Shown here: piece by piece, positions 556 through 32,338 of the stretch | How positions within the stretch are numbered: the first letter of the stretch is position 1 | Layout: every line of letters begins with the position of its first letter | Assembly (NCBI GenBank): GCA_946411525.1 | Contig: CAMKEI010000012.1 | Location: 1 to 47,095 of the forward strand | Direction: 5' to 3' | Origin: an uncultured Clostridia bacterium | Lineage (GTDB): Bacteria > Bacillota > Clostridia > Christensenellales > Aristaeellaceae | Length of the DNA: 47,095 nucleotides | Made by a program: the position numbers and the translations under genes | The notes under the pieces: model-generated | What the model was told of the DNA's origin: nothing | Seen by the model: the letters and a program-made list of their open reading frames with translations, nothing else | Databases searched by the model: none

Positions 556-1959
556 TCATCCGGAAATCTTTTCCAGCTCTGCAAACTTGACCTTTCCGTA
601 ATCATTCCTCGGAATCTTATCAATCACAAACACCCGGAATGCGGAATGATGAAGGTTTGTCTTGCTGCTGATGAAGGAAATAACTTCTTCCTTCAGGCCT
701 TCATCTGTCGTGAAGATGTTCATCCGCTTGTCATCGCCGGTACAGACAAAATCCGCCGTGGGCTGCCATGTCTTCAGAATCCGCTCCGTTTCGTCCAGGC
801 TGACACGGAGTCCAAACAATTTCAGGAACCGGCCTTTCCGGCCGATGATAAAGTAGAAGCCGTCCTGATCCCGTTTGGCGATATCCCCGGTATGGTACTC
901 TCCGCAGAATTCGTCGTCCTTCATCAGGTCGTCCCGGCAGACGGCGTAGCCCATCGTTACGTTCGGTCCGCGGTAACCCAGCTCGCCGGTGACGGTGCCG
1001 TCCTCGTTTTCCACTTCGTCCAGCAGGAACAGTTCCCCGTTCGGGATCGCCTTGCCCATGCTGCCGATCTTTTCCAGCGCCAGGCTGGGATCCAGGAACG
1101 CCATCCGTGCGCTGGTCTCGCTGGTGCCGAAGGTGGCGCAGAACCGCTTCCCGCTGTTTTTGCAGTAGGACGCGATCCAGGTGAACATCTTGTCCGTCAG
1201 TTTTCCGCCGCCCTCTGCCAGGGTGTACAGGTCCGGCAGGTCCATCTGGTCGAATCCGACCCGGCGCATGACCTCATAGCTGAAGGGCACACCGCAGAAG
1301 CTGGTCCCTTTGTTTTCTTTGATAAACTCCCAGAACTCGGGATCCATCAGGTTCGCCTTGATCATCAGCACGGACGCGCCGACCACCAGGTGGCTGTTGA
1401 TCACGTTCAGGCCCATCGTATAGTTCATGGGAAGGTCGCAGATGCCGATCTCCTCCGTGCTCCAGCTGAACACCTTTGCCACGTTCTCCGCGTTGGCTTC
1501 CAGGTTGCCGTACTTATGCCGGACCAGTTTGGGGCTTCCGGTGGAGCCGGACGTGGTGAGCAGCATTGAAAGCTTTTCGTTCAGCGGATATGGTTCGTAC
1601 CGGGTTTTCAGCAGAACATAACCACAGGCGGAATAGATCTTCTCACCGCCGATGCCTTCCGCCTTTTTTTCCGGAGCCCAGTAATAGGAGGGTGTGTACA
1701 TGCTCTCCAGGTTCATCCTTAATCCTTCGTCCAGGCTCGCGCTCAGGAGCAGCGGAACCTGCCTGTTGTTTTCGAACGCCATGTAGCCGATTAGGGATCC
1801 GGCGCAATTTTCGCACAGGCAGAAGATCACGCTCCGCGGAAGCTTCAGGTCGTCGAACTCCCGGATCGTTCTGCAGACGTCCCCGTAGGTCAGTGAATAA
1901 CCGCTGTCGTCCTTGATGGCCATTTTGGCCTGGTTATGTTTGTCAACGTTGAGAAACAT
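556..1959 (-). CDS. ANL-superfamily acyl-CoA/acyl-ACP ligase
   Basis: This 467-residue protein is a class I adenylate-forming enzyme, expected to activate a carboxylic acid as acyl-AMP and pass it to CoA or an ACP thiol in the cytoplasm. The P-loop-like motif LLTTSGSTGSPKLVRH lies near residue 135, the FGTSET motif near 277, and the hinge motif YHTGDIA with IGRKGRFLKLFG near 355-380. The late PRNDYGK carries the usual catalytic lysine near the C-terminus. It starts at an ATG behind AGGAGG and is the last gene of the operon, 53 bases after an ACP gene. That ACP is a plausible acceptor. Substrate cannot be read from sequence. O-succinylbenzoate- or 4-coumarate-CoA-ligase-like annotations would be over-precise. 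Confidence 0.85.
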   Translation of the reverse strand: MFLNVDKHNQAKMAIKDDSGYSLTYGDVCRTIREFDDLKLPRSVIFCLCENCAGSLIGYMAFENNRQVPLLLSASLDEGLRMNLESMYTPSYYWAPEKKAEGIGGEKIYSACGYVLLKTRYEPYPLNEKLSMLLTTSGSTGSPKLVRHKYGNLEANAENVAKVFSWSTEEIGICDLPMNYTMGLNVINSHLVVGASVLMIKANLMDPEFWEFIKENKGTSFCGVPFSYEVMRRVGFDQMDLPDLYTLAEGGGKLTDKMFTWIASYCKNSGKRFCATFGTSETSARMAFLDPSLALEKIGSMGKAIPNGELFLLDEVENEDGTVTGELGYRGPNVTMGYAVCRDDLMKDDEFCGEYHTGDIAKRDQDGFYFIIGRKGRFLKLFGLRVSLDETERILKTWQPTADFVCTGDDKRMNIFTTDEGLKEEVISFISSKTNLHHSAFRVFVIDKIPRNDYGKVKFAELEKISG

Positions 1960-2012
1960 ATTTCTTTCCTCCTGAAACAGTGCCGGTTGCTTCCTGATGG
2001 TCCGAATTCAGT

Positions 2013-2246
2013 TTATCCTTCGGCCTGGAGCTTCTCGATCAGTTCGATCATGGCGTCCACGGTGTTAAAGTTGTCGGGTTCAAGATCGTCGACATCGATT
2101 TCTACGTCGAACGTATCATTCATTTCCTGAACGATCGAGATAATGTCAAAAGAATCCAGTATACTTTCGTCAATCAGCTTTTTTTCTTTTTCAAACTCTA
2201 CGTCCGGGCGAATTTCCTCCAGTAAGGCAAGCAGTTGTTCTCTCAT
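2013..2246 (-). CDS. acyl carrier protein (DltC-like position)
   Basis: A 77-residue acidic helical protein with the carrier-protein signature LDSFDIISIVQEM. The serine near residue 35 would take the 4'-phosphopantetheine arm. The length is typical of ACP or DltC. A clear AAAGGAG precedes the ATG. It lies between a GNAT gene and an ANL ligase and downstream of DltA- and DltB-like genes, so its natural partners are the adenylation enzyme (3132-4640), which would load it, and the MBOAT protein (4660-6258), which would take the acyl group. It could equally be loaded by the neighbouring ligase at 556-1959. Confidence 0.85.
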   Translation of the reverse strand: MREQLLALLEEIRPDVEFEKEKKLIDESILDSFDIISIVQEMNDTFDVEIDVDDLEPDNFNTVDAMIELIEKLQAEG

Positions 2247-2338
2247 GATTCTTTTCTCCTTTACTTGATGATATTTATATTCTGTTTCTATTGAAAAAGA
2301 ATATTCAACAATTGTAGTTTTAAGCGGGAAACTGTATT

Positions 2339-3148
2339 TCAGCTATCCGTTTTTGTCCAGATATCCATCTGCCGTGTCGTATCTGCGAACCCTGTTTTTT
2401 CATACAGGGACAGAGCCGCTTTATTGGTCTGTTTAACCCAAAGAAGGTATTCCTTTTCCGGCCCTCCCCTGGCAATAATTGTTTGCAGTAATTCCTTTGC
2501 AATTCCTTTTCCGCGCATTGCCGGATTCACAGTAACATGCCGGATCCAGGACCGTCTACCGCTTGATTCGATCATGGCGCAGCCAATAACCTTACCGGAG
2601 ATGGAATCCCCATATACCCACATTTCATGATGGAGAATCGCTTCTGTCAATTCATCGCCGACAGGAAACGCGTCTGTCAGTCTGTCAAATGAGGAACAGA
2701 ACAATGACAGAATGGCTTCTTTATCCTGTAGATCGGCCTGCCGGATAACGCCTCCCGTTATGGATGGCATTTGAGAATCGGAAGGTTTGCAGCTCATCAT
2801 CCTGGCAGTGTCCGAAAAACGAAAACCGCATCGACGAAGGATATCTCTTTCTGCTTCTTTCTTTTCTGACAGCCGTGCGGAATAGATGATTTCAGAAACC
2901 AGTTCCATATGATCAGGAAGTATACATTCATAGGAATCCGTTTTGTCTGTGTGCGCCTGATAAAAGAACTGATTTCTTCCCTCTTTCACCAGAATCCAGC
3001 CAAATCCTCCTGCAGCGTCTGTTTCATACAATTGCTCTGACTGAATAGCTTTATCAATGTCATCCGGCAGCCAGTAGCAATTGCTGATATACCCTTTCAG
3101 AGAAAGCAGGCTGTTTCCTGTGTCTTTGATATCACTGATCTTCCGCAT
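2339..3148 (-). CDS. GNAT-family N-acetyltransferase
   Basis: This is a 269-residue protein whose C-terminal half is a GNAT fold. The acetyl-CoA-binding motif VNPAMRGKGIAKELLQ lies near residues 207-222, followed by NKAALSLYEKTGF, the usual final strand-helix. The first 110 residues are not assignable and may bind substrate. The start overlaps the end of the DltA-like gene by 17 bases, so the two are probably translationally coupled. A 92-base AT-rich gap separates it from the ACP gene. Its place inside a Dlt-like set suggests it acylates an amino group on the cargo or on the sugar, but that is inference. Confidence 0.8.
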   Translation of the reverse strand: MRKISDIKDTGNSLLSLKGYISNCYWLPDDIDKAIQSEQLYETDAAGGFGWILVKEGRNQFFYQAHTDKTDSYECILPDHMELVSEIIYSARLSEKKEAERDILRRCGFRFSDTARMMSCKPSDSQMPSITGGVIRQADLQDKEAILSLFCSSFDRLTDAFPVGDELTEAILHHEMWVYGDSISGKVIGCAMIESSGRRSWIRHVTVNPAMRGKGIAKELLQTIIARGGPEKEYLLWVKQTNKAALSLYEKTGFADTTRQMDIWTKTDS

Positions 3149-4640
3149 CTGTAATCATGCTCCGCAATTCGCTTCGGTCGATTTTTCCGTTTTTGTTCAG
3201 GGGCATCGTGTCGAGATGAACATAAATATTGGGGAGCATATATTTGGGGAGTTTTTCTTTTAGCCGGTTGATCAGTTCTTTCCGGTCAATATCACCGTCG
3301 TAGAACAGATAAATCTTGTTTTTGATCTGATCATAGATGCAGCAGCACATCCGGACTTCATCGATAGCCCCGGCAAAAGTTTCAATCTCTCCCAGTTCGA
3401 TCCGGTGACCCATATGCTTGATCTGGAAATCTTTTCTGGACGCAAACACATATTCATTCCGCTCATTCAGATATGCCAGGTCTCCGGTATGATAGATCAG
3501 TTCCGGATAATTGTTATGTTCAGGCGTCTGTTTGAATGCCTGTGCGGTACGTTCGGGATTGTTATAGTATCCCAGGGCCAGGCAGGTGCCGCGCACACAT
3601 ATTTCCCCTGTTTCTCCGGGGCCGATGGGAGTTCCGTCTTCCCTGATAACCATCACATGCTCATTGGCAAAAGCTTTCCCCAACGGTAATACTTCCGTAT
3701 CTTCAAACTGCCTGTCAATGACATAATACATGCAGTTGCAGGTAATCTCCGTCGGCCCGTACAGATTGACATACTGAACATCCGGCATGTATTTGCGCCA
3801 GATGTTCAGTTGTTTCATTGGCATTTGCTCTCCTGAAAACAACACATTTTTCAGAAAATGCGGAATATCATATTTGAAACTGTTAAACCCGGACGGAATG
3901 CAGATAGCCGAGACTGCCCAGATAATGGATGATACCTTTCTTTCATTCAGAAAATCGATGAGTTTCTTCGGCATCGTAAAGCAGACTTTGGGAATAATCT
4001 GCATCTGCGCTCCGCAATACAGCGTGGAATAAATATCCTTTGTGGAAACGTCAAAATCGAAAGGCGCCTGATTGCCAAATATCTCATCCTGTGTAAATCC
4101 GAATGTCCGGACAAACACAGGAATAAAATCGACAACAGACCGGTGGGAAATCAGCACCGCCTTGGGTACTCCGGTTGAACCGGAGGTGCAGATGGCATAC
4201 AGCGGATCCGTGTCCAGCGCCTTGTCCTGGACATCCTGGATAGCCTGCTCATTCACTTCTGCTTTGGATAATACATCATAATCGTATACAGTACAGATTC
4301 CCTGAACTGCCGTTTCAATTTCCGGAAGATCTGTCAGTTTGATTGCCGCAACGGGCCTGATTTGTTCAAAAATAGTCCTGATTCGGTCGATTGGCTGATT
4401 GACGTCAATCGGAACATAGAAGTTCCCGCTGAATATAATGCCGAAAATGGCGCAGATGCTCTGAATATTTCTGTCAATAAAGACAACGATTGGTTTCCGC
4501 GTTGCATTGTGTTTTTCAATAAGGGCGGATCCTATTCTTTTTCCGGTTTCTGTAAACCGGGCATAAGTTATGAATTGCTGTTCATCTGCGAAAACCGTTT
4601 TGTTCGGGTTGCCGTTTTTCAGCCAGTTAATTATTTCCAT
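3132..4640 (-). CDS. amino-acid adenylation enzyme, DltA-like
   Basis: A 502-residue stand-alone adenylation domain of the NRPS/DltA type. Visible core motifs are ICTSGSTGVPKAVLISH (A3), NLYGPTEITCNC (A5), GETGEICVRG (A6), YHTGDLA (A7), a hinge region with GHRIELGEIE (A8), and PLNKNGKIDRSEL with the A10 lysine. It should activate an amino acid and load a carrier protein. The start at 4640 is chosen because MEIINWL follows AAAGAAGGG, and an upstream in-frame ATG would overlap the MBOAT gene. The stretch FDFDVSTKDIYSTLYCG matches the DltA family, but the substrate may not be D-alanine: no lipoteichoic acid genes are nearby and the ACP gene is separated by a GNAT. Confidence 0.85.
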   Translation of the reverse strand: MEIINWLKNGNPNKTVFADEQQFITYARFTETGKRIGSALIEKHNATRKPIVVFIDRNIQSICAIFGIIFSGNFYVPIDVNQPIDRIRTIFEQIRPVAAIKLTDLPEIETAVQGICTVYDYDVLSKAEVNEQAIQDVQDKALDTDPLYAICTSGSTGVPKAVLISHRSVVDFIPVFVRTFGFTQDEIFGNQAPFDFDVSTKDIYSTLYCGAQMQIIPKVCFTMPKKLIDFLNERKVSSIIWAVSAICIPSGFNSFKYDIPHFLKNVLFSGEQMPMKQLNIWRKYMPDVQYVNLYGPTEITCNCMYYVIDRQFEDTEVLPLGKAFANEHVMVIREDGTPIGPGETGEICVRGTCLALGYYNNPERTAQAFKQTPEHNNYPELIYHTGDLAYLNERNEYVFASRKDFQIKHMGHRIELGEIETFAGAIDEVRMCCCIYDQIKNKIYLFYDGDIDRKELINRLKEKLPKYMLPNIYVHLDTMPLNKNGKIDRSELRSMITDAEDQ

Positions 4641-4659
4641 AATATACCCTTCTTTTAAA

Positions 4660-6258
4660 TTAAAACTGTTCATAAATAAAGCTTGCCGCATTATACTCAG
4701 GACCATAAATGCCAAAGATCAGAACTAGCAGAATAGCTGCGATATATATAGCCCACCGGAATATCAAATGCTGCCTGGCGAAGACTTCCCGGAAAGAAAT
4801 ACCTTTCTCATGTTTTGAGTCCACATACATCAGCAGGATCAGGAATAGCGCCAGGATAATCCAGTTGGCGTCGTTCAGGCCTAGTTTCAGAAGCGTGCCG
4901 TTGGTCAGGAACGAAATATTCCGCCAGTTCGTAAAGGTTCTGCCAAACATTGCCAATGCAGTCGGTAGATCGTTCGCCCGCGAAAAAAATCTTCCGACGC
5001 TTACAATTGTGAATGTGCGGAGAATCCGGAACGCCCGCCAGGTAACGGTTTTTTCATCGATCCGGCACAGTTTCCTTGCTTTGACATATACGTCTTCCAG
5101 CAGGATGCTGATCATGATAAACGTTCCGTTCCACACGCCGTAAGCTACATATTTCCAGTTCGCTCCATGCCAAAATCCAACGCAGAAATACACAATAAAC
5201 ATGGCAAGAAATGCCGGCAGTCGTTTGCCGACAAACTGTCCGAGTATCTTGCGACTCTTACGGCTCAAATTGGTAAATGCTTTGGATAATGAAAGCGGAT
5301 AAAATATATAATCCTTCATCCAGCTACCCATCGTAATATGCCAGCGGCGCCAGAAATCCTCAATGGAGCTGGCGTAATACGGCTGCTTGAAATTCAGTTC
5401 CAGTTCGATTCCCAGCATCTGCGCTACGCCACGAGCAATATCCATTCCGCCGGAAAAATCCGTATACACCTGCAAACCGTAAAGCGCCACAGCAAAGAAT
5501 AGAATCGGACCTGTGTACGATGTATAGTTTTCAAAAAGATAGTTGACAGGAATGGCAAGACGTTCTGCAATCACTAGTTTCTTGATAAAGCCCCATAACA
5601 TCAGCTGTGCACCAAAGCACAATCTTTGATAATCAAAAGAGTGTCCCTCATAGAGCTGATTTGCAAGCTGCTTATACCGTGGAATGGGTCCCTGGATAAT
5701 CTGCGGGAAAAAAGACATGAAAAGCAGGAATTTGGCAGGATTCCGATCAGCCTGCACCTTACCGCGATAAATATCGACCAGATAAGAAATCGCCTGTAGG
5801 GTATAGAAAGAAATGCCCAAAGGAAGAAGCAGATTCAGATACGGAACAGACCAGTTGGTTCCCAGAGAAAAGAAAAGGCTGTTCAGATTGTCACCGAAGA
5901 AATTATAATATTTCAAGAATAACAGGGCACCAAGTATCAATAGAATCCCTGCGCTCAGTATCCGACGGCTCTTCTTTTTCTGTTTTTCCTTCAGCGTCTT
6001 TTTCTCATCGCGGGTCAGTTCCGGATGGCTACTGAGATACTCTCGGTTCCGGTCGTTTGTCCACTGGAGAAGCAGGCCGAACAGATATGTCACCAGGCTC
6101 GTTGCGAGCAGGACGAACACCAACCATTTGCTGTTCAGCCAGTAAAAAACATAGCTGCCCGTAAGCAGGACTATCCACCGGATTTTCTTCGGGACAAGGT
6201 AATAAACCAGTACAACCGCCAGCACAAACAGGATGAACTGAAGTGAAACTATGCTCAT
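4660..6258 (-). CDS. MBOAT-family O-acyltransferase (DltB/AlgI-like)
   Basis: A 532-residue polytopic membrane protein of the MBOAT family, which moves acyl groups across the membrane towards extracytoplasmic sugars. The catalytic histidine lies in FCVGFWHGANWKYVAYG. The motifs VYTDFSGGMDIARG and IEDFWRRWHITMGSWMKDY are family signatures. The length is a little above usual DltB (about 400) and close to AlgI/PatA-like members (470-520). Translation starts at an ATGA overlap with the SGNH gene behind AGGAGG. The order SGNH, MBOAT, adenylation enzyme, carrier protein is a rearranged version of the dlt gene set. Confidence 0.92.
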   Translation of the reverse strand: MSIVSLQFILFVLAVVLVYYLVPKKIRWIVLLTGSYVFYWLNSKWLVFVLLATSLVTYLFGLLLQWTNDRNREYLSSHPELTRDEKKTLKEKQKKKSRRILSAGILLILGALLFLKYYNFFGDNLNSLFFSLGTNWSVPYLNLLLPLGISFYTLQAISYLVDIYRGKVQADRNPAKFLLFMSFFPQIIQGPIPRYKQLANQLYEGHSFDYQRLCFGAQLMLWGFIKKLVIAERLAIPVNYLFENYTSYTGPILFFAVALYGLQVYTDFSGGMDIARGVAQMLGIELELNFKQPYYASSIEDFWRRWHITMGSWMKDYIFYPLSLSKAFTNLSRKSRKILGQFVGKRLPAFLAMFIVYFCVGFWHGANWKYVAYGVWNGTFIMISILLEDVYVKARKLCRIDEKTVTWRAFRILRTFTIVSVGRFFSRANDLPTALAMFGRTFTNWRNISFLTNGTLLKLGLNDANWIILALFLILLMYVDSKHEKGISFREVFARQHLIFRWAIYIAAILLVLIFGIYGPEYNAASFIYEQF

Positions 6259-7616
6259 TTCGCTTTTCCTCCTGCTGTCTTGCTAATTCCCTGGACGTTA
6301 AATCGGCCGTACTGTTTTTCGCCGTTCACCGTACGGTACGGAACCACGGTATAGGTATACTTGACAGAAGCTTCCCGGTTGATATTGTTATATTGTGTGG
6401 TTGTTGGCTTAACTGTCTTGATCAGTTCCCATGGCTTCCCTCCGCCCTTACGGTAAATTACATATCCTTCTGCTCCGTCAACCAGTTCCCAATAGATGGA
6501 TATCGTCTGGTCCTTCGCGGTCGAACGGATCAGTTTCGGGGCGTCAAGATCCGCTCTTTCGGCATGATCCATTTCAAAGTCGAGGGCATAGAAGGCGATT
6601 TTATTGTTGTACTCTTCGGCTGCTTTGTCCCAGTCCTCCCATCCGGACGTCCCCCGCTTGTCCTCGAATCCATAATGGTCGATCAGGTACTTGCCCAAAT
6701 AATGGGAAAACTTCAGTGAACCGTGGATATTTGTATGTGTTTCATTGTAAAATTCCATTTTCATATCCAGACCAAGCAGTTCAACGTTGTTCAGGAGGTC
6801 CAGGCAGGGATAGCCGCGGGCAACCGCCATATCAGTCAGGCTATTCATATGTTCGACGGCCTTTTTTGTTGTGCTTTGCGGACACGTCACAAACAGCACG
6901 TTCAGCTTCTGTTCGTCGCAGTAATCCAACAGATCGGTAAAGGCAGCCTGTACGTCTGCCGGGGGATCAAGTCTCTGATCCGATTTAATATAAGATTTGG
7001 AGAGGTCTGTTACCTGTTTGAGTAATTTATCGGAGTATCGTGAGCTCTTATAGTCTGTTTCTGCGGCGTCAAAAACCCATGGCTGCAGCTCGTTCCACCG
7101 GCTGTGGAAGCGGATGATGGGCAGGTAATACTGCAGTTTTTCTTCCAATGTAGCCTCGGTATCCATATGATCAGTTAGGTTTTTGATCATCTGGTATTTG
7201 TTCAGGGACGCCGGAAGATAATCGACTGAGTGATGGATCCAGGCGGAATTGGTCGTGGCTGACCAGCCTCTGAACGCATTCATGTTGATGATAAACAGCG
7301 CGTTGGGCTGAGTTTTGTGCGCTTCAATCAGGTAGTGCTTCATTGCAAGCACCGGCGCCGAGTAATTGGCATATGTCCAGACGGCGATACCGTATTCAGA
7401 CCAGCCGAATAATGACTGGTAAAACTCAAACACCGCGCTGCCGCCGATATATACAGCGTCCAGGCTGCCCGGTTTCTCTTTGAGATACCCGACCTCAGCC
7501 TCATAGCTCCTCGGGTCGGAAACGCCGAAGTGCATTTGGACGAAATTGAATACAATGACAAAAACGATCAGAAACCCGATCGCCCTGAGCAAGTTCCACC
7601 AGCTGTTTTTCTTCAT
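6255..7616 (-). CDS. membrane-anchored SGNH-like protein with C-terminal FN3 domain (DltD/AlgJ-like)
   Basis: This 453-residue protein has an N-terminal membrane anchor (about residues 9-28) and an extracytoplasmic SGNH-hydrolase-like domain. YIGGSAVFEF (about 56-65) corresponds to the GDS block with its serine. NETHTNIHGSLKFSHYL (about 293-309) corresponds to the DxxH block, but asparagine stands where the catalytic aspartate is expected. Residues about 355-448 read as a fibronectin type III domain. The domain pairs with the MBOAT gene that overlaps it by four bases, so it likely completes transfer of the exported acyl group to a surface polymer. A GGAGGGG site lies just before the ATG. The FN3 tail is unusual for DltD. 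Confidence 0.75.
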   Translation of the reverse strand: MKKNSWWNLLRAIGFLIVFVIVFNFVQMHFGVSDPRSYEAEVGYLKEKPGSLDAVYIGGSAVFEFYQSLFGWSEYGIAVWTYANYSAPVLAMKHYLIEAHKTQPNALFIINMNAFRGWSATTNSAWIHHSVDYLPASLNKYQMIKNLTDHMDTEATLEEKLQYYLPIIRFHSRWNELQPWVFDAAETDYKSSRYSDKLLKQVTDLSKSYIKSDQRLDPPADVQAAFTDLLDYCDEQKLNVLFVTCPQSTTKKAVEHMNSLTDMAVARGYPCLDLLNNVELLGLDMKMEFYNETHTNIHGSLKFSHYLGKYLIDHYGFEDKRGTSGWEDWDKAAEEYNNKIAFYALDFEMDHAERADLDAPKLIRSTAKDQTISIYWELVDGAEGYVIYRKGGGKPWELIKTVKPTTTQYNNINREASVKYTYTVVPYRTVNGEKQYGRFNVQGISKTAGGKAK

Positions 7617-9884: not shown

Positions 9885-10268
9885 TTATCCGATTTCAAAG
9901 AGCGCGTCCCCGCCCTGGACCGAATCTCCCTGCTTAACGTGAAGCGCGGTGATCTTCCCGGCCTTCGGCGCGCTGATCTCGTTCTCCATCTTCATGGCTT
10001 CCAGCACAAGGACGGCCTGTCCCTGCTGCACTTCGTCGCCCTGGGATACGTTCACCTTCAGGATGGTTCCGGGCATCGGGCTGGTGACCGCGTTTCCGGC
10101 GGCGGGCTGCGCCGCCGCGGGCGCGGCGACAGCGGGAGCCGCCTGTGCGGGAGCCGCCTTGGCCGGCGCTTCGTCCTTCTTCGGAGCGGCAACGGGCGCG
10201 CTGCCGTCCATCAGTTCGATCTCCATCTCATAGGTTTTACCGTCCAGGGTAATTCTGTATTTGCTCAT
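9885..10268 (-). CDS. biotin carboxyl carrier protein (1.3S-like)
   Basis: This 127-residue protein has a short N-terminal part, a mobile Ala/Pro/Lys-rich linker (about residues 24-60) and a C-terminal biotinyl domain. The biotin attachment motif EAMKMENEI has Lys93. The size matches the 1.3S biotin subunit of transcarboxylase and the carrier subunits of Na+-pumping decarboxylases. The ATG follows GGAG. It shuttles carboxyl groups between the two carboxyltransferases encoded on either side. Confidence 0.93.
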
Positions 10269-10443: not shown

Positions 10444-10463
10444 GCGTTCATTACCGCCTTTCG

Positions 10464-14888: not shown

Positions 14889-14911
14889 TTGGTTGCCTCC
14901 TGTTTTTTCAT

Positions 14912-25394: not shown

Positions 25395-26197
25395 TATGCT
25401 TTCCTTTCCGTTTCCATTTCCCTGCCGTATTTTTCGATGGCCAGGTCTTTGTAGATGGCCCGGCCTGAATCGTCATAACCGACAAAATAAATCCCGCCTG
25501 CGGCGCTGGTTCTGGCTTTTGTGGCAAACGTCATTTTTACCAGCAGAAAGATCATTTTGATATCGGTTCTGAAACTGACGTTTTCCACATACCAGACGTC
25601 GTTTTCAAACTGCTTCTGGTACAGTTCGCCCTCCACGTTGATCACACGCGGACATTCCAGTCCGGGCCGGACCGCACTTCTCATCCTGTGCCGGTCAGAC
25701 ATCCGGTCATAGAAGAAAGCGGGAAGCGGTCTGGGTCCGATAATGCTCATATCGCCCTTCAGGACGGACCAGAAATTCAGCAGCTCGTCCAGGGAATGGC
25801 TCCTCATGAAAAAGCCGAATTTCGTCACCCGCTCCCTGGCGGGCAGGAGCTTGCCGTCCTGATCGGTATTGTTGTTCATATTCCGGAACTTGACAATCGT
25901 AAACGGTTTTTCATCCTTGCCGATACGTGTCTGCTTGTAAAAGATAGGCCGGCCCACATCAAAAAAAGTACAGATGCCGAAAATGATATTGAATGGCAGC
26001 AGAATCACAAACGCCGGGAATGATACCAGAAAGTCCAGTCCCCGTTTGATAAACCTGGTATAAACTGTCCTCCGGGGATGTACCGGAGCGGATGACGCGT
26101 TCACTTTTGCCAGGTTCCTGCGTTTCAGAAAATCGGATATGGCTTCTTCGTCGTATTGGATCAGATTGACGTTTCCTACGGTTGCCTTGTCTTCCAT
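25394..26197 (-). CDS. polyprenyl-phosphate sugar-1-phosphate transferase (PglC/WbaP catalytic type)
   Basis: A 267-residue monotopic phosphoglycosyl transferase. A 50-residue N-terminal extension is followed by RGLDFLVSFPAFVILLPFNIIF, the re-entrant membrane helix, then KQTRIGKDEKPFTIVKFRNM, FFMRSHSLDELLNFWSVLKGDMSIIGPRPL and VRPGLE. The usual catalytic Asp-Glu pair is RSHSLDELLN. It starts the glycan by moving a sugar-1-phosphate from its nucleotide to undecaprenyl phosphate. It lacks the four-helix plus Rossmann N-terminal half of the long WbaP type; a module like that half sits on the FdtA protein (28313-29479). Confidence 0.92.
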   Translation of the reverse strand: MEDKATVGNVNLIQYDEEAISDFLKRRNLAKVNASSAPVHPRRTVYTRFIKRGLDFLVSFPAFVILLPFNIIFGICTFFDVGRPIFYKQTRIGKDEKPFTIVKFRNMNNNTDQDGKLLPARERVTKFGFFMRSHSLDELLNFWSVLKGDMSIIGPRPLPAFFYDRMSDRHRMRSAVRPGLECPRVINVEGELYQKQFENDVWYVENVSFRTDIKMIFLLVKMTFATKARTSAAGGIYFVGYDDSGRAIYKDLAIEKYGREMETERKA

Positions 26198-26226: not shown

Positions 26227-27207
26227 TCAGGATAATTGTTTCCGGAATGTGTATTTGAGACTGCGCTCACAGCCGACGCTTTCCTTGAAATTGCACAGCC
26301 CGTAATTGGGTATACTGTCTTCCGTTGCGATCGCCTTGTCAAGGATCCGGTATCCCTGATCTCCGTAATACCTGATAGTATAGTACGTAAGCAGGTTCAT
26401 CCCGTTGCAGTTCATATAATCCGGATGGGTTCCCGTATAGATTCCCTGTACGATCCGGTCGTTGATCCTGTAAAGAACTTCCGCAACGATTCCCGTTCCG
26501 TCCTTCCTGACGATAAACGCGTCATGTTCCACCAGTTTCAGCGTTTCAGTCAGTTGTTCAAAACTCAGCTTTACCGGAAAGCCTTTGGATTCATGACCGA
26601 TCTGTATAATATCATACGCTGCTTTATAGTCTTCATCGCTTTCGCATCGGAAGATCTCCAGCCCGGCCCGTTCCGCTCTCCTCAGGCCTTTCCTGCCTTT
26701 CTGCGTAATCAGCTGGCCGTAGGTTTCCTCATCGACGTTGAGTTTCTGCAGGTTCAGCGCATAGTTTATGTCAAGGTTCTGTATTGCGTATCCGTTCCGA
26801 AAAAACGCGCTGACCCATCCGCTGAGGAGATGCTCGTTATAAAACAACGGTGGGAAGATGAACCGGATCGACTGAGCGCCCTGTTCGGCGCAGTATTGTT
26901 CGAAAACGTCAAGCGCCGCGTCGATCGATTCCTGCTTGGATTCCTCAAGGATCGCGACAGGATAGGAATACGGTGCGGAGAACGGGGTCCTCATTTCCGA
27001 CCCCACTTTCCCCGCAATCAGTCCGAATCTTGCGGATTCCTCCCTCATGATAACCAGATAATATAATTCATCCGCCTTGTTCCGGTTCAATTCTGTAAAT
27101 GCCGGCTCGTTAAAGAAGACTTCCCGCCGGGGAACAAGCGCAGTATATTCTTCTGCAGATACCCGTTTGATGTACCACAGTCCCTTTTCATCCGAACAAG
27201 CTGTCAT
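26227..27207 (-). CDS. FemAB/GNAT-like acyltransferase
   Basis: A 326-residue cytoplasmic protein with the two-domain layout of FemAB/BioF2-like acyltransferases. KGRKGLRRAERAGLEIF (about residues 168-184) and the later YTGTHPDYMNCNGMNLLTYYTI with LDKAIATED match the conserved acyl-binding half. Homologues in surface-glycan loci put acyl or aminoacyl groups on amino sugars. It sits between the 3-aminotransferase and the sugar transferase, where an N-acyltransferase for the new amino sugar would be expected, because the two NeuD-like proteins lack the usual histidine. The Shine-Dalgarno site is weak. Donor (CoA or ACP) is unknown. Confidence 0.7.
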   Translation of the reverse strand: MTACSDEKGLWYIKRVSAEEYTALVPRREVFFNEPAFTELNRNKADELYYLVIMREESARFGLIAGKVGSEMRTPFSAPYSYPVAILEESKQESIDAALDVFEQYCAEQGAQSIRFIFPPLFYNEHLLSGWVSAFFRNGYAIQNLDINYALNLQKLNVDEETYGQLITQKGRKGLRRAERAGLEIFRCESDEDYKAAYDIIQIGHESKGFPVKLSFEQLTETLKLVEHDAFIVRKDGTGIVAEVLYRINDRIVQGIYTGTHPDYMNCNGMNLLTYYTIRYYGDQGYRILDKAIATEDSIPNYGLCNFKESVGCERSLKYTFRKQLS

Positions 27208-27221: not shown

Positions 27222-28316
27222 TTAAAACCGGTTGATTGTATCGATCACACAGCTGATTTCTTCATCTGTCATCCCGTAATACATCGGAAGGCTCAGTTCC
27301 GTCCTGCTGATTTCCTCCGCAATCGGGAAATCGCCTTCTCTGTAACCGAGATCCCTGTAGCATTCCTGCAGATGCATGGGAATGGGGTAGTGCTTGTTGG
27401 TACCGATGCCTTTCCCGTTCAGGTGCTCTTCCAGCGCCTCTCTCTCCCGGCAGCGGATGCCGAAGATGTGCCAGACCGGCACCATCTCTTTTTCAACCGC
27501 CGGCAGAATCACCCTGCCGTTGGTAATCTCGTTCAGATACCTGTCAGCAATCCTGCGCCGTTCTGCATTCATCTTCTCAAGAATGGGAAGCTTTGCGGAA
27601 AGGAACGCGGCCTGCATTTCATCCAGACGGCTGTTGTTGCCTTTGTAAATATGATGGTATTTGTAATCCGAGCCATAATTGCCGAGCGCCCGGACCTTCC
27701 GGGCAATTTCTTCATTATCGGTTACGACTGCGCCGGCATCCCCGAGTGCGCCCAGGTTCTTTCCGGGATAGAAACTGAAACCGGCTGCGTCTCCGAAGGT
27801 GCTGACTTTCTGTCCTTTGTAGGTTGCGCCGTGGGCCTGGGCGCAGTCCTCGATGATCTTCAACCCGTATTTTTCTGCAATCGACAGGATCGGATCCATA
27901 TCACATGCCTGGCCGTACAGATGGACCGGCATAATGGCTTTTGTCTTTTTGCTGACTGCCGCCTCAATCCTGTCCGGATCGATATTGAATGTCCTGATCT
28001 TCGGCTCAACAAACACCGGCGTTGCGCCGACATAAGTCACCGCAAGTGCGGTTGCGATATATGTGTTGGAGGGAACGATCACCTCGTCTCCCTCTCCGAT
28101 GTTCAGCGCTTTCAGGATAAGCATCAGCGCATCCAGGCCGTTGCCCACGCCGATACAGTATTTCGTCCCGCAGTATTCAGCAAAAGCTTTTTCAAACGCC
28201 TCATCTTCCCTGCCTTCAATATACCAGGAACGGGTAAGCACACGGTCAAAAGCAGCCCGCAGTTCTGTGTTCAGTTCTTTCTCCATGGGAAGAAACGAAA
28301 CGAATGGCACTCTCAT
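27222..28316 (-). CDS. PLP-dependent sugar aminotransferase, FdtB/QdtB-like
   Basis: A 364-residue DegT/DnrJ/EryC1-family enzyme. [35 protein letters not shown] and [20 protein letters not shown] (PLP lysine in GKNLG) are clear. The overall pattern, including [16 protein letters not shown] and HYPIPMHLQ, is closer to the C3-aminotransferases FdtB/QdtB than to C4 enzymes such as PglE. It would make a 3-amino-3,6-dideoxy sugar nucleotide from the 3-keto product of the FdtA protein. Its ATG overlaps the FdtA stop (ATGA), so the pair is translated together. Confidence 0.88.
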
Positions 28317-29479
28317 GAATGGAATCCTTTCTCTGTCTGTTTCAGTGAATCCGCACCCTCGCGGTACTTCTTGTTATATTCAATAAACTCGTCATAGTTC
28401 CTGATGTATTCCTGCGCGTCGTAATACTCGGAAGCGAGTACGCACAGGACTGACCCGCTCTGCTGCCAGACCATCTCTCTCCACAGTCCCGGCATCAGAA
28501 TGAGGCCCTTTCCCGGCTTGTCCAGCGTCACGGTCGTTTTTTGCTGACCGTCGTCCAGGATGATATCGATCTTTCCGTAGGGACAGTAAAGCAGCTGACA
28601 GTTCAGTTTATGGGCATGAAATCCCCGATGCAGATCCGCTTCCGTTTCAGTAATCCAGTAGACTCTTCGGATCGGAAAAGGAATATCCCTCTTCCCTTCC
28701 AGGAAGGAAAGCGCGCCATACTTGGGATCTTCGTTCTGGATCGTCGTGACGTCTATCACCCGGTAATTGAAATCCACCAGATCAAAATTCAGTTTCATAT
28801 CCTTGCAGGCTTTGATCAGGAATCCGGGCACCATCTGATGATCGAGCCCGTAAATATACACTTTGTCAATCCACTTCCAGCAGATAACCGCGGCTGCTTC
28901 CTCCCAGGTCCTGACTGTCGGTATCCCGTTGACTGCATCCTTGTTCAGGTTCTTCAGCAGATAGATGTTCCTGACGTCAATGTTCAGTTTGTTCAGTTCC
29001 TCCAGGCCTTCGTCCACAAACCGGTCTGTGGTCATCAGCAGCGCCGTGGGCCTATCGTGTTTCCCGGAGCAGGCTTTCAGCAGGTATTTCCAGCACAGAT
29101 GAAGCGCTACAAGAAAAACAAAATAGAAAGCGTACGCCAGGTACACCGTAACCCGCGAATAATCCGCGCCGGCTTTGGTGGTGAACAGAACGACCGCCAG
29201 CAATACAAAACTGATGACGATATGCTTCCCGGAAGCGATTACTTCTTTCCGGACGCTTCGTCTGTACACCCTGTCCAGCGTGTTGAAAACGGTCGTAACA
29301 AGGAGGTCGATTGCGGCCATATAGAGGATGATCGAACTGTAGTCTTGAAAATCGTATCTTTTGTAATTCGGATCCAGATAGATATGCGCCGCCAGTACGT
29401 TGGCTCCGATAAGCGCGATCAGATCAAGAAGGATGAAACTGACATATTTCAGTTTTCCGTAACGGATCTGATTTTTCAT
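28313..29479 (-). CDS. membrane-anchored FdtA-type 3,4-ketoisomerase fusion
   Basis: A 388-residue fusion. Residues about 12-136 hold four membrane helices, and about 140-245 a Rossmann-like region ending [20 protein letters not shown]. Both resemble the N-terminal half of long polyprenyl-phosphate sugar transferases. Residues about 255-388 are a cupin of the FdtA/QdtA/WxcM family: [12 protein letters not shown], the catalytic RGFHAHK (two His), [18 protein letters not shown] and [12 protein letters not shown]. FdtA normally is a soluble protein of about 140 residues that shifts the keto group of dTDP-4-keto-6-deoxyglucose from C4 to C3. Here it is tied to the membrane. Its start has GGGGGGAAAG upstream. 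Confidence 0.85.
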
Positions 29480-29499
29480 GCTGCTTTCCCCCTGATTTC

Positions 29500-30150
29500 T
29501 TATTTCAGCAGCTGAATGATATCAGCCTGTATCTCTTCTATTGTTCGCATCTGTCTGCCTTTTTCGCATTCCACTGTCTTCCAGCCGAGCCTGTCCGCGC
29601 AGTATTCCGCGGCAGCCCGGCACCGGTTCAGGTATTCCAGGTCTTTTTCGTGAATATCCTTCTTCTCCTCATGGCCCTGGTATCTTCCAGTCATCAGCTG
29701 CTGACTGAGACAGGGATCCACCTTCAGATAAACAACCAGGTCGGGCGCAGGAATACCCAGAAGATTGTATTCATAATCAAACAGCCAGTCAAGAAAGGTA
29801 TCCCACTGTTCTTTGGGAAGTTTGCTGCATTGATGGATGGCGTTGGAAGTTGTGTATCGGTCTGCGATTATGATACCGTTCCGGTAAGTTTCCTGCCAGT
29901 CTTTTTTATAACTGGCATAGCGGTCGACAGCATAAAAGCTGGAAGCGGCGTAAGCGTTTACATCGTCCGGATGTGTCCCGAACTGTCCGGCCAGATACAT
30001 TTTGACCAGAGCGGAGCTTTCGCTTGCGTAATCCGGAAAGCTGACTTCCTGAACCGGCTTCCCTTCTTCTTTCAGCGTTTTCGCGAGCAGTTTGGCCTGC
30101 GTCGCCTTTCCGGATCCATCCAGGCCTTCAATCACAATCAGTCTGCCCAT
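29500..30150 (-). CDS. tmk: dTMP kinase
   Basis: A 216-residue thymidylate kinase that phosphorylates dTMP to dTDP. The P-loop EGLDGSGKATQAKLL starts at residue 8; DRYTTSNAIHQ is the DR(Y/W) substrate motif, and the short LID follows GRYQGHEEKKD. The length is normal. It lies in a glycan operon between the superoxide reductase and FdtA-fusion genes, with 20 and 12 base gaps. The presence of dTDP-sugar-type enzymes gives one rationale, but a chance insertion of a housekeeping gene is equally possible. AAAGGA precedes the ATG. Confidence 0.93.
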   Translation of the reverse strand: MGRLIVIEGLDGSGKATQAKLLAKTLKEEGKPVQEVSFPDYASESSALVKMYLAGQFGTHPDDVNAYAASSFYAVDRYASYKKDWQETYRNGIIIADRYTTSNAIHQCSKLPKEQWDTFLDWLFDYEYNLLGIPAPDLVVYLKVDPCLSQQLMTGRYQGHEEKKDIHEKDLEYLNRCRAAAEYCADRLGWKTVECEKGRQMRTIEEIQADIIQLLK

Positions 30151-30162
30151 ATCTGTTTTCCT

Positions 30163-30501
30163 TTATCCCTCCGCCTTCCACAGACCGTGGAGATTGCAGT
30201 ATTCATAGGCTGCGACAACCGGCTCGGTGACGGCAAAATCGGCTGTGGGTTTCTGGCCGGGTTTCAGATCTTTGCGCTGGAAGCCGGAAACCGTCTCCAG
30301 AATGATCCATTCGATGTAATGGGCGTTCAGCATGGGATGCTCGGCTGACCCAACCCTGACAGTAACATGATCTCCGTGCTGTTCAATCACGGGAACATGC
30401 TTTTCAAAGGCACCGTCAGTTGTGTTGGGTATAATCTGTTCAGCCTCCGGAACAGGTTCGTCTGCGGGAATGATTTTACCGTCGATCCTGTGGAAATACA
30501 T
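30163..30501 (-). CDS. superoxide reductase, one-iron desulfoferrodoxin/neelaredoxin type
   Basis: A 112-residue protein that reduces superoxide to peroxide with a mononuclear iron site. The ligands are present: His35 in EKHVPVI, with the neighbouring Glu33/Lys34; His55 in EHPM; His61 in NAHYIEW; and Cys102 with His105 in YCNLHGLW. The N-terminal desulforedoxin-type site (center I) is absent. This is a normal anaerobe stress gene, oddly placed second in a glycan operon just downstream of the CapD-like gene. AAGGAG precedes the ATG. Confidence 0.93.
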   Translation of the reverse strand: MYFHRIDGKIIPADEPVPEAEQIIPNTTDGAFEKHVPVIEQHGDHVTVRVGSAEHPMLNAHYIEWIILETVSGFQRKDLKPGQKPTADFAVTEPVVAAYEYCNLHGLWKAEG

Positions 30502-30517
30502 ACAGACATCTCCTTAT

Positions 30518-32338
30518 TTATGCTTCGTGGTAGGCCGGAAGAATCTCATGAAGGGTCTGTTTGATATCTCTGTGCTGTTCAATGGCTTCATTCAGCTTGT
30601 CGAGCCAGGCTTGAACGGTTCCCCAGTCATAATGGTCCTGAGGAGTAACGTAGATCCGGTCGCGTTCGGTCGCCTGGTCGTTCTCCTTGTCCAGAAGGAG
30701 CTCTTCATAAAGCTTTTCACCGGGCCTGAGCCCTGTGCAGACAATCTGTTCCCTGCCGGTACCGTAAAGCCGGATCATTTTTTCGGCAAGATCCTTAATC
30801 CTGACAGGTTCGCCCATATCAAGGATGAAGAGTTCTCCGCCCCTGGCAATGGAAACAGCCTGGAGAACCAGGGAGGCTGCTTCGGGAATGGTCATGAAGT
30901 AACGGATGATTCTCGGATCTGTCAGCGTCACCGGACCGCCAGCCCTGATCTGGCGCTCGAAGATCGGGACCACGGAGCCATGGGAACCGAGTACATTGCC
31001 GAACCGGACCGCCATGAATTCGGTGTTCCCCGGCGGAATGCTCGAGAGGATAATCTCGGCCAGGCGCTTGGAAGCACCCATAACGTTGGTCGGGTTCACG
31101 GCCTTGTCCGTGGAAATCAGGACAAAACGCTTCACATTGCACCCGATTGCTGCCTTCGCGGTTTTGTAAGTGCCGAAAACGTTGTTCAGGATCGCCTGCT
31201 CACTGCTCTGTTCCATCAGGGGAACATGCTTGTGCGCCGCTGCGTGGATAACAATATCCGGCCTGTATCTGCCCATCACCCGCCAGAGGGATTCCTCATC
31301 CCGGACGGAGCCGACTTCCAGCACCAGTGTATTGGCAACCAGTTCCCCGTACTTTTCCTTCAGTTCGAAGAAAAGATCATACATATAGTTCTCGGAGATG
31401 TCGTAAAGGATGAGTTTTTTCGGAGTGAATGCCAGGATCTGGCGGCAGAGCTCGGATCCGATGGATCCGCCGCCGCCGGTGATAAGTACGGTTTTGCCGG
31501 AAAGATATTCCTGGACTTCCGTCATGTCCAGATGCTGTTCCGGCCGGCCGAGCAGGTCGGCAATATTGATTTCCCTTGCTTCCGACCCTTCCTTGACCCC
31601 GGTGTAAAGGAGAACGTGCGCACCTGTGGCAATGCACCGGTTCAGCAGTTCCGCGGTGTCGCCCTGCGGGGTGGCGATGGCAATGATGATCTCATCAATA
31701 TTATATTTGTCAACGGTGTTCTGAATATCGTCCGTCTTTCCGACGACAGGGACCCTTGAAATGGAGGAATGCTGTTTCTCCTGATCGTCGTCCAGAATGG
31801 CCACGGCTGCCGCATTGCCGTACCGGCCGTTCTGAATATCCCGTATCACAGTCGCTCCGCCGTAGCCGGCGCCGATGACCAGGATCCGGGTCGTGTTTTG
31901 ACCGCCTTTCCGATGGCTGCCTGCCGCTCTGTATCGAACCAGAAAACGGGTGCCGGCTACCAGGAAAAGAGTGACGGCCCACTGGACGAAATAGATCGGA
32001 CGGGGCATGAGAATCAGGCGCATGCCGATCTCTCTTTCGTACGCGCGGCAGCAGAGGGAAACGATAAGGCTGACCAGATAAGTGACACCAGTACCGGCGA
32101 GGGTGCCGGTAATCGCCTGCAGAAGCGTATCCACGCCCGCATAGCGCAGAATGGATTTATAGATCCCGGAGATCAGCAGGCCCAGAAATGTTGCCGCGAG
32201 CAGGATTGGCAGGTTGCGGGCTGTCTGGAGCAGGCGGGTCGCCGTTATATCCGCAAAGAAATAAAAAGCCACAGAAACAAACAGGCCGGTCACGGTGAAA
32301 AGAGCATCCAGCAGGGGCCAGAGGAGTTTCTTTTTCAT
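30518..32338 (-). CDS. CapD/FlaA1-type membrane nucleotide-sugar 4,6-dehydratase
   Basis: A 606-residue membrane protein: four N-terminal helices, a Rossmann-like domain (ILVIGAGYGGATVI), then the extended SDR catalytic domain with VLITGGGGSIGSELCRQIL, HAAAHKHVPLME, STDKAVNPTNVMGASKRLAE (Met in place of the SDR Tyr, as is usual in this group) and a C-terminal half of the same type. PglF, WbpM and CapD convert UDP-GlcNAc to the 4-keto-6-deoxy sugar. The start at 32338 follows AAAGGCG; the frame continues upstream over a GC-rich leader. It is the first gene behind the consensus promoter at 32506-32534. Confidence 0.93.
   Translation of the reverse strand: MKKKLLWPLLDALFTVTGLFVSVAFYFFADITATRLLQTARNLPILLAATFLGLLISGIYKSILRYAGVDTLLQAITGTLAGTGVTYLVSLIVSLCCRAYEREIGMRLILMPRPIYFVQWAVTLFLVAGTRFLVRYRAAGSHRKGGQNTTRILVIGAGYGGATVIRDIQNGRYGNAAAVAILDDDQEKQHSSISRVPVVGKTDDIQNTVDKYNIDEIIIAIATPQGDTAELLNRCIATGAHVLLYTGVKEGSEAREINIADLLGRPEQHLDMTEVQEYLSGKTVLITGGGGSIGSELCRQILAFTPKKLILYDISENYMYDLFFELKEKYGELVANTLVLEVGSVRDEESLWRVMGRYRPDIVIHAAAHKHVPLMEQSSEQAILNNVFGTYKTAKAAIGCNVKRFVLISTDKAVNPTNVMGASKRLAEIILSSIPPGNTEFMAVRFGNVLGSHGSVVPIFERQIRAGGPVTLTDPRIIRYFMTIPEAASLVLQAVSIARGGELFILDMGEPVRIKDLAEKMIRLYGTGREQIVCTGLRPGEKLYEELLLDKENDQATERDRIYVTPQDHYDWGTVQAWLDKLNEAIEQHRDIKQTLHEILPAYHEA

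Follow-up and report, generated by a model that had tools for sequence, protein, structure and literature searches.

Malonyl-CoA is normally bound to acetyl-CoA carboxylase (ACC) and lipid synthesis, and the locus described here raises the question of whether a surface-glycan operon can carry its own supply of it in a host that appears to have neither ACC nor a fatty-acid synthase. The locus lies between positions 32494 and 556 of a 47,095-nucleotide contig (CAMKEI010000012.1, C12) from an uncultured Clostridia bacterium of the family Aristaeellaceae. The whole contig, referred to below as the window, is part of a 2.45-Mb draft genome (assembly GCA_946411525.1; G000) that is 85% complete. Our answer, which we hold to be reasonably probable, is that the locus is a surface-glycan operon of the Wzx/Wzy type that also encodes a short-chain acylation line together with the supply for it, and genome comparison gives good support to the predicted source of malonyl-CoA inside the operon.

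All genes called between 32494 and 556 are on the minus strand, with no gap of more than 95 bases. An earlier reading of the letters alone (the sequence-only reading) had described such a single-strand run with short gaps, made up of sugar enzymes, an acyl-group line, a transcarboxylase-like set and an SGNH/MBOAT/adenylation/acyl carrier protein (ACP) set. The run was borne out, and family searches together with inspection of the open reading frames (ORFs) found every gene type it had named in its place and on that strand. In the direction of transcription the order starts with a CapD/PglF-type dehydratase, desulfoferrodoxin-like and thymidylate-kinase-like genes, an FdtA fusion, FdtB, a FemAB-like gene and the initiating sugar transferase. 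It continues with two PglD/NeuD-type genes, FabD, an MBL-fold hydrolase, a beta-ketoacyl-ACP synthase III (KAS III; KASa), a short-chain dehydrogenase/reductase (SDR1), a second KAS III (KASb), ACP1, ACP2, Wzy and Wzx. These are followed by an FrhB-like gene, two pyruvyltransferase-like genes, a hexapeptide acetyltransferase, MmdA, a gene for a 64-aa protein, a biotin carrier, OadA and SDR2, and lastly by an SGNH-like gene, MBOAT, AMP1, GNAT, ACP3 and AMP2. The biotin carrier, the 64-aa gene, both PglD/NeuD-type acyltransferases, the MBL-fold hydrolase, the FemAB-like transferase, the two pyruvyltransferase-like genes, the FrhB-like gene, the GNAT and the second, divergent adenylating enzyme (AMP2) had been missed by the sequence-only reading. 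Most family matches are far above chance, ranging from 8.4e-187 for MmdA to 8.2e-5 for the weakest accepted one (FemAB-like), and ACP2, which has no Pfam match, and the SGNH-like gene were identified by motifs and by relatives at the same position.

The evidence that links the carboxyltransferase to the acyl line comes from a sample of 41 genomes of the genus, the window genome included. KAS III (PF08541) occurs in four of them, namely G000, G012, G020 and G064. The carboxyltransferase family PF01039 occurs in ten, as full-length MmdA-type proteins in exactly the four KAS III carriers and as split AccA/AccD-like pairs in the six others. All four genomes have MmdA on the contig that carries KAS III, at distances of 2.9, 3.0, 3.3 and 7.5 kb (the last in the window); the co-occurrence has a chance of 1 in 101,270 if the genomes are independent, which they are not fully. 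A full FabF match is present in exactly the six AccA/AccD genomes and in no other, and in five further genomes the FabF hits above the Pfam cut-off span only 42-46 residues. Family searches of G000 found no AccA/AccD, no FabF, and no KAS III outside the operon. Since the four module genomes are 85, 93, 88 and 89% complete, it is unlikely that assembly gaps alone account for the loss of ACC, FabF and KAS III genes in all four. The proposal of the sequence-only reading that malonyl-CoA made by transcarboxylation would feed a short beta-hydroxyacyl-ACP line gains support from the shared presence of KAS III and MmdA at one locus in the same four genomes, from the absence of AccA/AccD and FabF in searches of the window genome, and from the recurrence of the module order in the genome RUG12222, described below. 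A separate observation concerns the sample as a whole: 31 of the 41 genomes have neither an ACC-family carboxyltransferase nor the module, and the four module loci were the only places where KAS III was found. Fatty-acid synthesis seems to be largely lost in the genus.

The carboxyltransferase set consists of four minus-strand genes. MmdA (10464-12014), an acyl-CoA carboxyltransferase of the 12S type, matches PF01039 at the value given above and reaches 790.8 of 998.8 bits against TIGR01117 (mmdA); its best match in the Protein Data Bank is 1vrg (propionyl-CoA carboxylase beta subunit, 2.3e-201), and the second is 1on3 (12S chain, 2e-187). The 64-aa protein encoded next (10273-10467) has no family match, and similar genes of 59-64 aa occupy the same position in G020, RGIG2869 and RUG12222. 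The biotin carrier (9885-10268) is of the 1.3S type with the motif EAMKMEN, and matches PRK06549 (3.5e-38) and MmdC (7.1e-27), both below the curated cut-offs. OadA (8456-9868; PF02436 2.8e-58, PF00682 4.7e-18) is a 5S-type carboxyltransferase for the pyruvate/oxaloacetate side and is without a biotin domain. A 12S-type carboxyltransferase, an EAMKMEN carrier and a 5S-type carboxyltransferase thus stand together in one set, which is the make-up of a transcarboxylase. The methylmalonyl-CoA:pyruvate transcarboxylase of Propionibacterium is assembled from the same three subunit types (12S, 1.3S and 5S); unlike it, the window set is located in a glycan operon, includes the extra 64-aa gene, has an OadA below the cut-off of the 5S model, occurs in a genome in which no methylmalonyl-CoA mutase was found, and would be expected to use acetyl-CoA as acceptor.

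Family scans of the window genes recognised neither OadB nor biotin carboxylase in the locus, the latter not having been searched for itself. PF02436 is present in 32 of the 41 genus genomes, and G000 has only the copy in the cluster. A second type of OadA locus, read in G064, G020, G012 and G001, has the row PEPCK-OadA-OadG-like-biotin carrier-OadB-like in all four, with PEPCK, OadG and OadB named from sequence and order rather than by family search. As the window set is without OadB and an OadB-like gene stands in the other OadA row of the genus, the make-up of the set is that of a transcarboxylase and not of a sodium pump, and a Na+-pumping oxaloacetate decarboxylase was rejected on these two grounds. 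The MmdAs of the clusters are 34-38% identical (30-32% for the one of [Clostridium] symbiosum) to the paralogs Csym_C51 and Butyri_C22; they do not stand out as a closed clade, because a full-length non-cluster carboxyltransferase of C. symbiosum (C211) is 45-51% identical to them.

What MmdA carboxylates can be approached through residue Ile409, which lies at the specificity site (PccB 422, AccB 420 in Streptomyces coelicolor). It aligns with residue 422 of the S. coelicolor PccB chains 1xnw, 3iav and 3ib9, which have I, V and L there and which we take to be D422 mutants. All eight module MmdAs that were aligned have Ile at this site (the ninth, that of RUG12222, was left out). According to the accessible part of PMC7835884, Asp is conserved at the site among carboxylases using propionyl-CoA, the S. 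coelicolor AccB, which also uses acetyl-CoA, has Ile there, and the D427I exchange in the Thermobifida fusca enzyme raises acetyl-CoA carboxylation 1.5-fold. This supports the view that Ile409 makes MmdA permissive for acetyl-CoA, and the residue is the one feature that supports the predicted transfer of a carboxyl group from oxaloacetate to acetyl-CoA by the set. Methylmalonyl-CoA mutase (PF01642) was not found in any of the nine module-bearing genomes, which argues against propionate metabolism, and on this ground we hold a propionate-type transcarboxylase to be unlikely. A transcarboxylase route to malonyl-CoA has already been used as an idea, since a table in a review (PMC9960984) lists mmc, a methylmalonyl-CoA carboxyltransferase, among the genes expressed for a malonyl-CoA pathway in an engineered methanotroph.

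The genes of the acyl line, all on the minus strand, start with FabD (ACP S-malonyltransferase; 23170-24093), which scores 284.1 bits against TIGR00128 (cut-off 260.9) and carries the motif SAPFHC (SAAFHS in G012); both motifs are, on our assumption, of the malonyl type. An MBL-fold hydrolase, possibly a thioesterase, follows (22526-23173; PF00753 3.3e-19 on the longer ORF). KASa (21433-22524; PF08541 3.2e-23) has C119, H264 and N294 invariant in five of five sequences, KASb (19545-20621; PF08541 1.3e-19) keeps the same C/H/N residues, and SDR1 (20638-21405; PF13561 1.5e-48), which is 3-ketoacyl reductase-like, keeps S, Y and K. ACP1 (19250-19471; 73 aa; PF00550 1.4e-6 in the longer ORF), the start of which was set by alignment with relatives, is 71% identical to its relative in G020 and 65% to that in C. 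symbiosum; ACP2 (19000-19239), recognised by a WDSV motif, shows identities of 78% (G020), 70% (RUG12222) and 62% (C. symbiosum). Two core members lie further downstream. SDR2 (7679-8443; PF13561 2.1e-61), a FabG-like reductase, is 88, 80 and 70% identical to its relatives in G020, RUG12222 and C. symbiosum, respectively. AMP2 (556-1959; PF00501 2.7e-30), a divergent adenylate-forming enzyme of the acyl/aryl-acid type, shares 90% identity with G020, 79% with RUG12222, 61% with C. symbiosum and 49% with G064, and its Lys456, presumably the catalytic lysine, is invariant in six of six sequences.

A Cys-His-Asn KAS III, a Ser-Tyr-Lys reductase and a Ser-bearing ACP are therefore all present, which fits the ACP-dependent N-acyl amino-sugar loci of the wfp/vio type, and the sugar aminotransferase and PglD/VioB-type acyltransferase that such loci require are both in the locus. 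Family scans recognised no acyl-chain dehydratase, enoyl reductase or FabF in the locus, the first two not having been sought genome-wide; we rejected a type II fatty acid synthase on these absences, with FabF and AccA/AccD likewise not found in G000. An AcpS-type transferase is present in all nine module genomes. As a side observation, the sole match to the phosphopantetheinyl transferase (PPTase) family in G066 lies inside the glycan cluster (L091:15706-16134), and G067 has a second PPTase-family match, below cut-off, in its glycan cluster.

How far the association extends was read from a KAS alignment scan of named genomes, in which we considered the best 80 of 590 loci, from many phyla, and counted neighbours within the fetched flanks, using tblastn where gene calling had missed genes in AT-rich loci. 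Sets of KAS, reductase and amino-sugar genes are widespread, since an SDR is near KAS in 63 of the 80 loci, a PglD-type gene in 32, an FdtB-type gene in 28 and both of the latter in 23. MmdA lies within the flank in [Clostridium] symbiosum ATCC 14940, Clostridia RGIG2869, Clostridia Lapin-011 and Butyrivibrio XPD2006; the metagenome-assembled genome RUG12222 is a fifth case, with MmdA just past the flank at 8.6 kb from KASb. MmdA-bearing loci thus make up 5 of the 13 Clostridia-named loci (one Tissierellia included) and none of the 67 others within the fetched flank. FabD is near in 4 of the 5 MmdA-bearing loci, as against 3 of the 75 others.

RUG12222 nearly repeats the module order of the window. 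Its first part reads PglD2-FabD-MBL-KASa-SDR1-KASb-ACP1-ACP1-ACP2, and after differing middle genes, pyruvyltransferase-like and FrhB-like ones included, it continues with MmdA, a 61-aa gene, biotin carrier, OadA, SDR2, FrhB and AMP2. The acyl and carboxyltransferase genes are 43-81% identical to those of the window (MmdA 81%, OadA 77%), and the others 26-41%. G020 and RGIG2869 likewise carry the whole four-gene transcarboxylase in the locus, so that the full set is found in four of the nine module genomes. Matches to AMP2 at 1e-60 occur in 5 of the 80 KAS loci, all five with SDR2 adjacent and ACP2 near; the AMP2-SDR2 pair is also present in G020, and in RUG12222 with one intervening gene, and in G012 an FkbH gene is found in the neighbourhood where the others have AMP2 and SDR2. 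The cluster of C. symbiosum ATCC 14940 (L089) has relatives of KASa (66% identity), SDR2 (70%), AMP2 (61%), MmdA (53%) and Wzy (35%), as well as rmlA- and rmlB-looking genes, which were named without family search.

From the observed gene content, order, co-occurrence, absences and motif residues we infer a series of reactions, each of which is putative. Together with the 64-aa protein, the three subunits OadA, biotin carrier and MmdA would transfer a carboxyl group from oxaloacetate to acetyl-CoA, yielding malonyl-CoA and pyruvate. FabD would load the malonyl group onto ACP1, KASa and KASb would join it to a starter by condensation, and the keto groups would be reduced by SDR1 and perhaps SDR2. 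As no acyl-chain dehydratase or enoyl reductase was recognised in the locus, the product is expected to remain a short hydroxyacyl-ACP, for which known systems suggest 3-hydroxybutyryl or 3,5-dihydroxyhexanoyl, and the presence of two KAS III makes two rounds of condensation plausible. AMP2, SDR2 and ACP2 would probably act in starter loading or extra reduction. The PglD-type enzymes would then move the acyl group onto the amino group of a sugar made by CapD, FdtA and FdtB, and the sugar would be placed on a lipid carrier, flipped and polymerised, after which the SGNH/MBOAT/AMP1/GNAT/ACP3 set would add an (N-acyl)aminoacyl ester outside. Of these steps, sugar N-acylation had been proposed by the sequence-only reading, and the PglD-type enzymes agree with it by family and precedent. 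The supply is perhaps built in because the host appears to be without ACC or fatty-acid synthase; this would not be the whole reason, given that C. symbiosum and Butyrivibrio have other carboxyltransferases.

Several observations weigh against a built-in malonyl-CoA supply. OadA clears the cut-off of the oxaloacetate decarboxylase model PRK12331, an OadA equivalog (731.6 of 718 bits), but not that of the transcarboxylase 5S model PRK12330 (573.8 of 827), and neither MmdA nor the biotin carrier passes any equivalog or subfamily cut-off. MmdA is near KAS in only 4 of the 80 loci, or 5 if RUG12222 is counted, and the organism names of all these are clostridial. In five of the nine module genomes (G012, G064, C. 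symbiosum, Lapin-011 and Butyrivibrio) MmdA stands without adjacent OadA and carrier, and in Butyrivibrio it is on the opposite strand; in G012 and G064 the other OadA row lies elsewhere in the genome and could lend the missing parts. C. symbiosum and Butyrivibrio carry the cluster MmdA although other carboxyltransferases are present. As regards the specificity site, the T. fusca enzyme already accepts acetyl-CoA with its Asp, the gain from Ile is only 1.5-fold, and the residue is called important but 'not sole determinant' (both from the accessible part of PMC7835884). In G012 a gene resembling methylmalonyl-CoA epimerase (61.6 bits, cut-off 114.95) adjoins MmdA, beside the FkbH gene, and hints at methylmalonyl-CoA there. 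Finally, the completeness of the window genome (85%) bears on its absences, and the mutual exclusion of type II fatty acid synthesis and the module is not significant (p 0.52) and was not used as evidence.

Some of these observations would be expected if the carboxyltransferase set served ordinary energy metabolism, as a propionate-fermentation transcarboxylase or in oxaloacetate decarboxylation, and merely lay beside the glycan genes. Besides the pass of OadA as an oxaloacetate decarboxylase alpha subunit and the strand of the Butyrivibrio gene, it would explain why the best model for MmdA is methylmalonyl-CoA decarboxylase alpha, why the block holds the sole OadA found in G000, and why the GC content at third codon positions is 0.68-0.82 in the block versus 0.42 and 0.60 in its immediate neighbours. 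That content is not raised in the MmdA of G020 (0.54), however, and the mutase is absent from the searches of all nine module genomes, the set is without OadB, an OadB-like gene is found in another OadA row of the genus, MmdA and KAS III co-occur perfectly across the 41 genomes, and the module order is kept in RUG12222; we consider this explanation quite unlikely. A related possibility keeps MmdA in the acyl line but has it convert propionyl-CoA to methylmalonyl-CoA, so that the line would build methyl-branched hydroxyacyl groups. The epimerase-like neighbour in G012 speaks for it, as does the statement, in the accessible part of PMC7835884, that Ile-bearing enzymes can still use propionyl-CoA. 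Family scans recognised no epimerase-like gene in the window, though, and FabD is of the malonyl type by TIGR00128, and also by its motif as we read it, which makes methyl-branched products rather improbable.

Two further alternatives concern the destination of the acyl groups. In G064 the acyl line, MmdA, MBOAT and SGNH form a single run, the six genes scanned on its flanks include no sugar genes, and if the window line likewise fed MBOAT, the result would be an O-ester on the polymer outside rather than an N-acyl sugar. For the window we regard this as unlikely: two PglD-type genes abut FabD there, RUG12222, RGIG2869, C. symbiosum and Lapin-011 each have such a gene nearby, and the MBOAT set includes a carrier and an adenylation enzyme of its own and is also found in the KAS III-free genomes G026 and G062. 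A role of the line in making membrane or storage lipid precursors, in place of the missing fatty-acid synthase, would account for the fact that the sole ketosynthases found in the genome lie in it; we think it very improbable, as the locus has no recognised acyl-chain dehydratase, enoyl reductase or FabF and 31 of the 41 genus genomes do without both an ACC carboxyltransferase and the module.

The MBOAT set is tied to the self-supplied acyl line more loosely. It comprises an SGNH-like MBOAT partner (6255-7616), for which no Pfam or NCBIfam model exceeds its cut-off (GH85_C 21.2 of 27 bits), a DltB-like MBOAT (4660-6258; PF03062 1.3e-11), AMP1, a DltA-like adenylating enzyme of the amino-acid type (3132-4706; TIGR01733 4.8e-89), a GNAT acetyltransferase (2339-3148; PF00583 5.4e-14) and the carrier ACP3 (2013-2246; PF00550 1.3e-5), which aligns with the ACP3s of G026, G064 and G012; all are on the minus strand. 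Relatives of the SGNH-like gene adjoin MBOAT in G026, G062 and G064, with S60, H294 and N296 invariant in four of four. Like the dlt operon (DltABCD), the set has an adenylation enzyme, an MBOAT, a carrier and an SGNH-like protein in a row. Unlike dlt, it has an extra GNAT, it is located inside a glycan operon, and AMP1 (290.7 bits against TIGR01734, cut-off 559.85) and MBOAT (158 bits, cut-off 375) are under the DltA and DltB equivalog cut-offs; a true Dlt D-alanylation operon was rejected on the latter ground.

The set has a GC content of 44-49%, versus 56-64% for SDR2, OadA, the biotin carrier, MmdA and AMP2 (54% for the 64-aa gene), and is inserted exactly between SDR2 and AMP2, which are neighbours in G020. 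Relatives occur in G026 (AMP1 55%, MBOAT 70%) and G062, both without KAS III. Matches to AMP1 are near KAS in 17 of the 80 loci, at a loose threshold that also catches AMP2-like genes, and no locus among these 80 holds both MmdA and MBOAT within the fetched flanks. The set is probably an added cassette of Dlt-like make-up. On the other side, G064 has AMP2, AMP1, ACP3, KASa, SDRs, ACPs, MBL, MmdA, FabD, MBOAT and SGNH in one run, and because MBOAT and SGNH are joined there to the acyl line and MmdA, the line may feed MBOAT in some hosts. A phage-type integrase gene (L075:5356-6540) is found among the six flanking genes of the G064 cassette and hints at mobility. The sequence-only reading had treated four modules (sugar and export genes, acyl line, transcarboxylase-like set and MBOAT set) as one unit: the acyl line with the carboxyltransferase stands by conservation and the first three modules recur in relatives, whereas the MBOAT set joins them loosely and all four were seen together in the window only.

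The individual types of module are already known. In Flavobacterium psychrophilum, wfpC-wfpG encode two 3-ketoacyl-ACP synthases, an ACP, a reductase and a PglD homologue predicted to provide and transfer a 3,5-dihydroxyhexanoyl group to UDP-Qui2NAc4N; the group was established by NMR, and the gene roles are predicted (PMC6519341, accessible part). The window shares these genes, the pglF/pglE-type sugar genes and Wzy with this Gram-negative O-antigen locus, for which, in the same part of the source, FabD, a carboxyltransferase, AMP2 and an MBOAT set are unmentioned. In Pseudomonas syringae, the accessible text of PMC3927599 assigns one KAS III, a reductase, an ACP and an acyltransferase (vioS, vioR, acp and vioB) to the 3-hydroxybutyryl group of modified viosamine, which a vioR mutant lacked by mass spectrometry. 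The window resembles this system for N-acylation of a dTDP-amino-sugar, and differs from it in that the viosamine island, as described there, has a single KAS III, no malonyl supply or polymerase among its seven ORFs, and serves a flagellin glycan. Among the matches listed from open-licence PMC text, we found no description of a glycan locus with a transcarboxylase or another built-in malonyl-CoA source; the combination, in hosts apparently without fatty-acid synthesis, would be a variant of ACP-dependent glycan acylation loci that is undescribed as far as searched.

A wider interpretation, which we put forward tentatively, is that of a self-contained, transferable glycan-acylation cassette for bacteria without fatty-acid synthesis. 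It would combine an ATP-free malonyl-CoA source (the transcarboxylase) with a malonyl loader, ketosynthases, reductases and carriers, to which at least one member adds the only PPTase of its genome, and its output could go to sugar N-acylation or to export by MBOAT. If this is true, malonyl-CoA would serve surface decoration only, malonyl-CoA chemistry could persist for that purpose alone after the loss of fatty-acid synthesis, and bacteria could acquire a complete acyl-coat cassette from one another. In Clostridia, among them the sequenced C. symbiosum ATCC 14940, the module could also serve as a marker for glycans decorated with hydroxyacyl groups.

The remaining glycan genes, again on the minus strand, are as follows. 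The CapD/PglF-type nucleotide-sugar 4,6-dehydratase (30518-32338; PF02719 1.7e-113) has its longest ORF from 32494, but an in-frame ATG at 32338, the end taken by the sequence-only reading, is preceded by GAAAGG and is probably the true start. The FdtA-type ketoisomerase (28313-29479; PF05523 2.4e-39) is fused to the N-terminal domain of a glycosylphosphotransferase (TIGR03025 1.3e-14, residues 17-235): its N-terminal half is the membrane domain of a polyprenyl glycosylphosphotransferase with the catalytic domain missing, and a full-length relative is found in G020 (40-42% identity). FdtA is best known for acting on dTDP sugars and the dehydratase is of the UDP-GlcNAc type, so that the nucleotide of the sugar could be UDP or dTDP. 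The FdtB-type sugar aminotransferase (27222-28316; PF01041 6.9e-120), the FemAB/GNAT-like transferase (26227-27207; PF13480 8.2e-5) and the initiating sugar-phosphate transferase (25394-26197; PF02397 2.9e-46) precede the two PglD/NeuD-type sugar N-acyltransferases (24750-25394 and 24110-24748; TIGR03570 3.1e-36 and 1.2e-28), both of which are below the model's cut-off (124.9 bits for the better match versus 160.8). Wzy (17606-18904; PF04932 9.3e-8), the relative of the C. symbiosum gene mentioned above, and the Wzx-type flippase (16090-17601; PF13440 5.1e-94) are followed by the FrhB-like Fe-S protein (14912-16093; PF04432 6.2e-18), the polysaccharide-pyruvyltransferase-like pair (13743-14915 and 12619-13716; PF04230 2.6e-30 and 1.8e-28) and the hexapeptide acetyltransferase (12077-12622; PF00132 1e-7). 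Family scans of the operon genes recognised no glycosyltransferase in 12077-32338 besides the initiating one; the repeat unit may be very small, or glycosyltransferases may be encoded elsewhere.

The thymidylate-kinase-like and desulfoferrodoxin-like genes (29500-30501, minus strand) lie within the glycan operon with short gaps. Upstream of the dehydratase the same strand carries a three-domain protein (32653-34659) with nucleotidyltransferase, cytidylyltransferase-like and phosphoenolpyruvate (PEP) mutase domains (TIGR02320 395.8 bits, above the cut-off) and a gene without assigned family, followed by asparaginyl-tRNA synthetase and RNase Y facing away. The PEP-mutase fusion points to a phosphonate as part of the glycan; the window genes that were scanned included no recognised phosphonopyruvate decarboxylase. 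At the other end, 555 bases separate AMP2 from the end of the contig. Rfam and tRNA scans of the window gave no match. A consensus match to a sigma-70-type promoter (TTGACA-17-TATAAT, 12/12) is located at 32506-32534 on the minus strand, and an inverted repeat of 13 bp without mismatches (18958-18986), which has a weak T tail and lies in the gap between ACP2 and Wzy, is a possible partial terminator.

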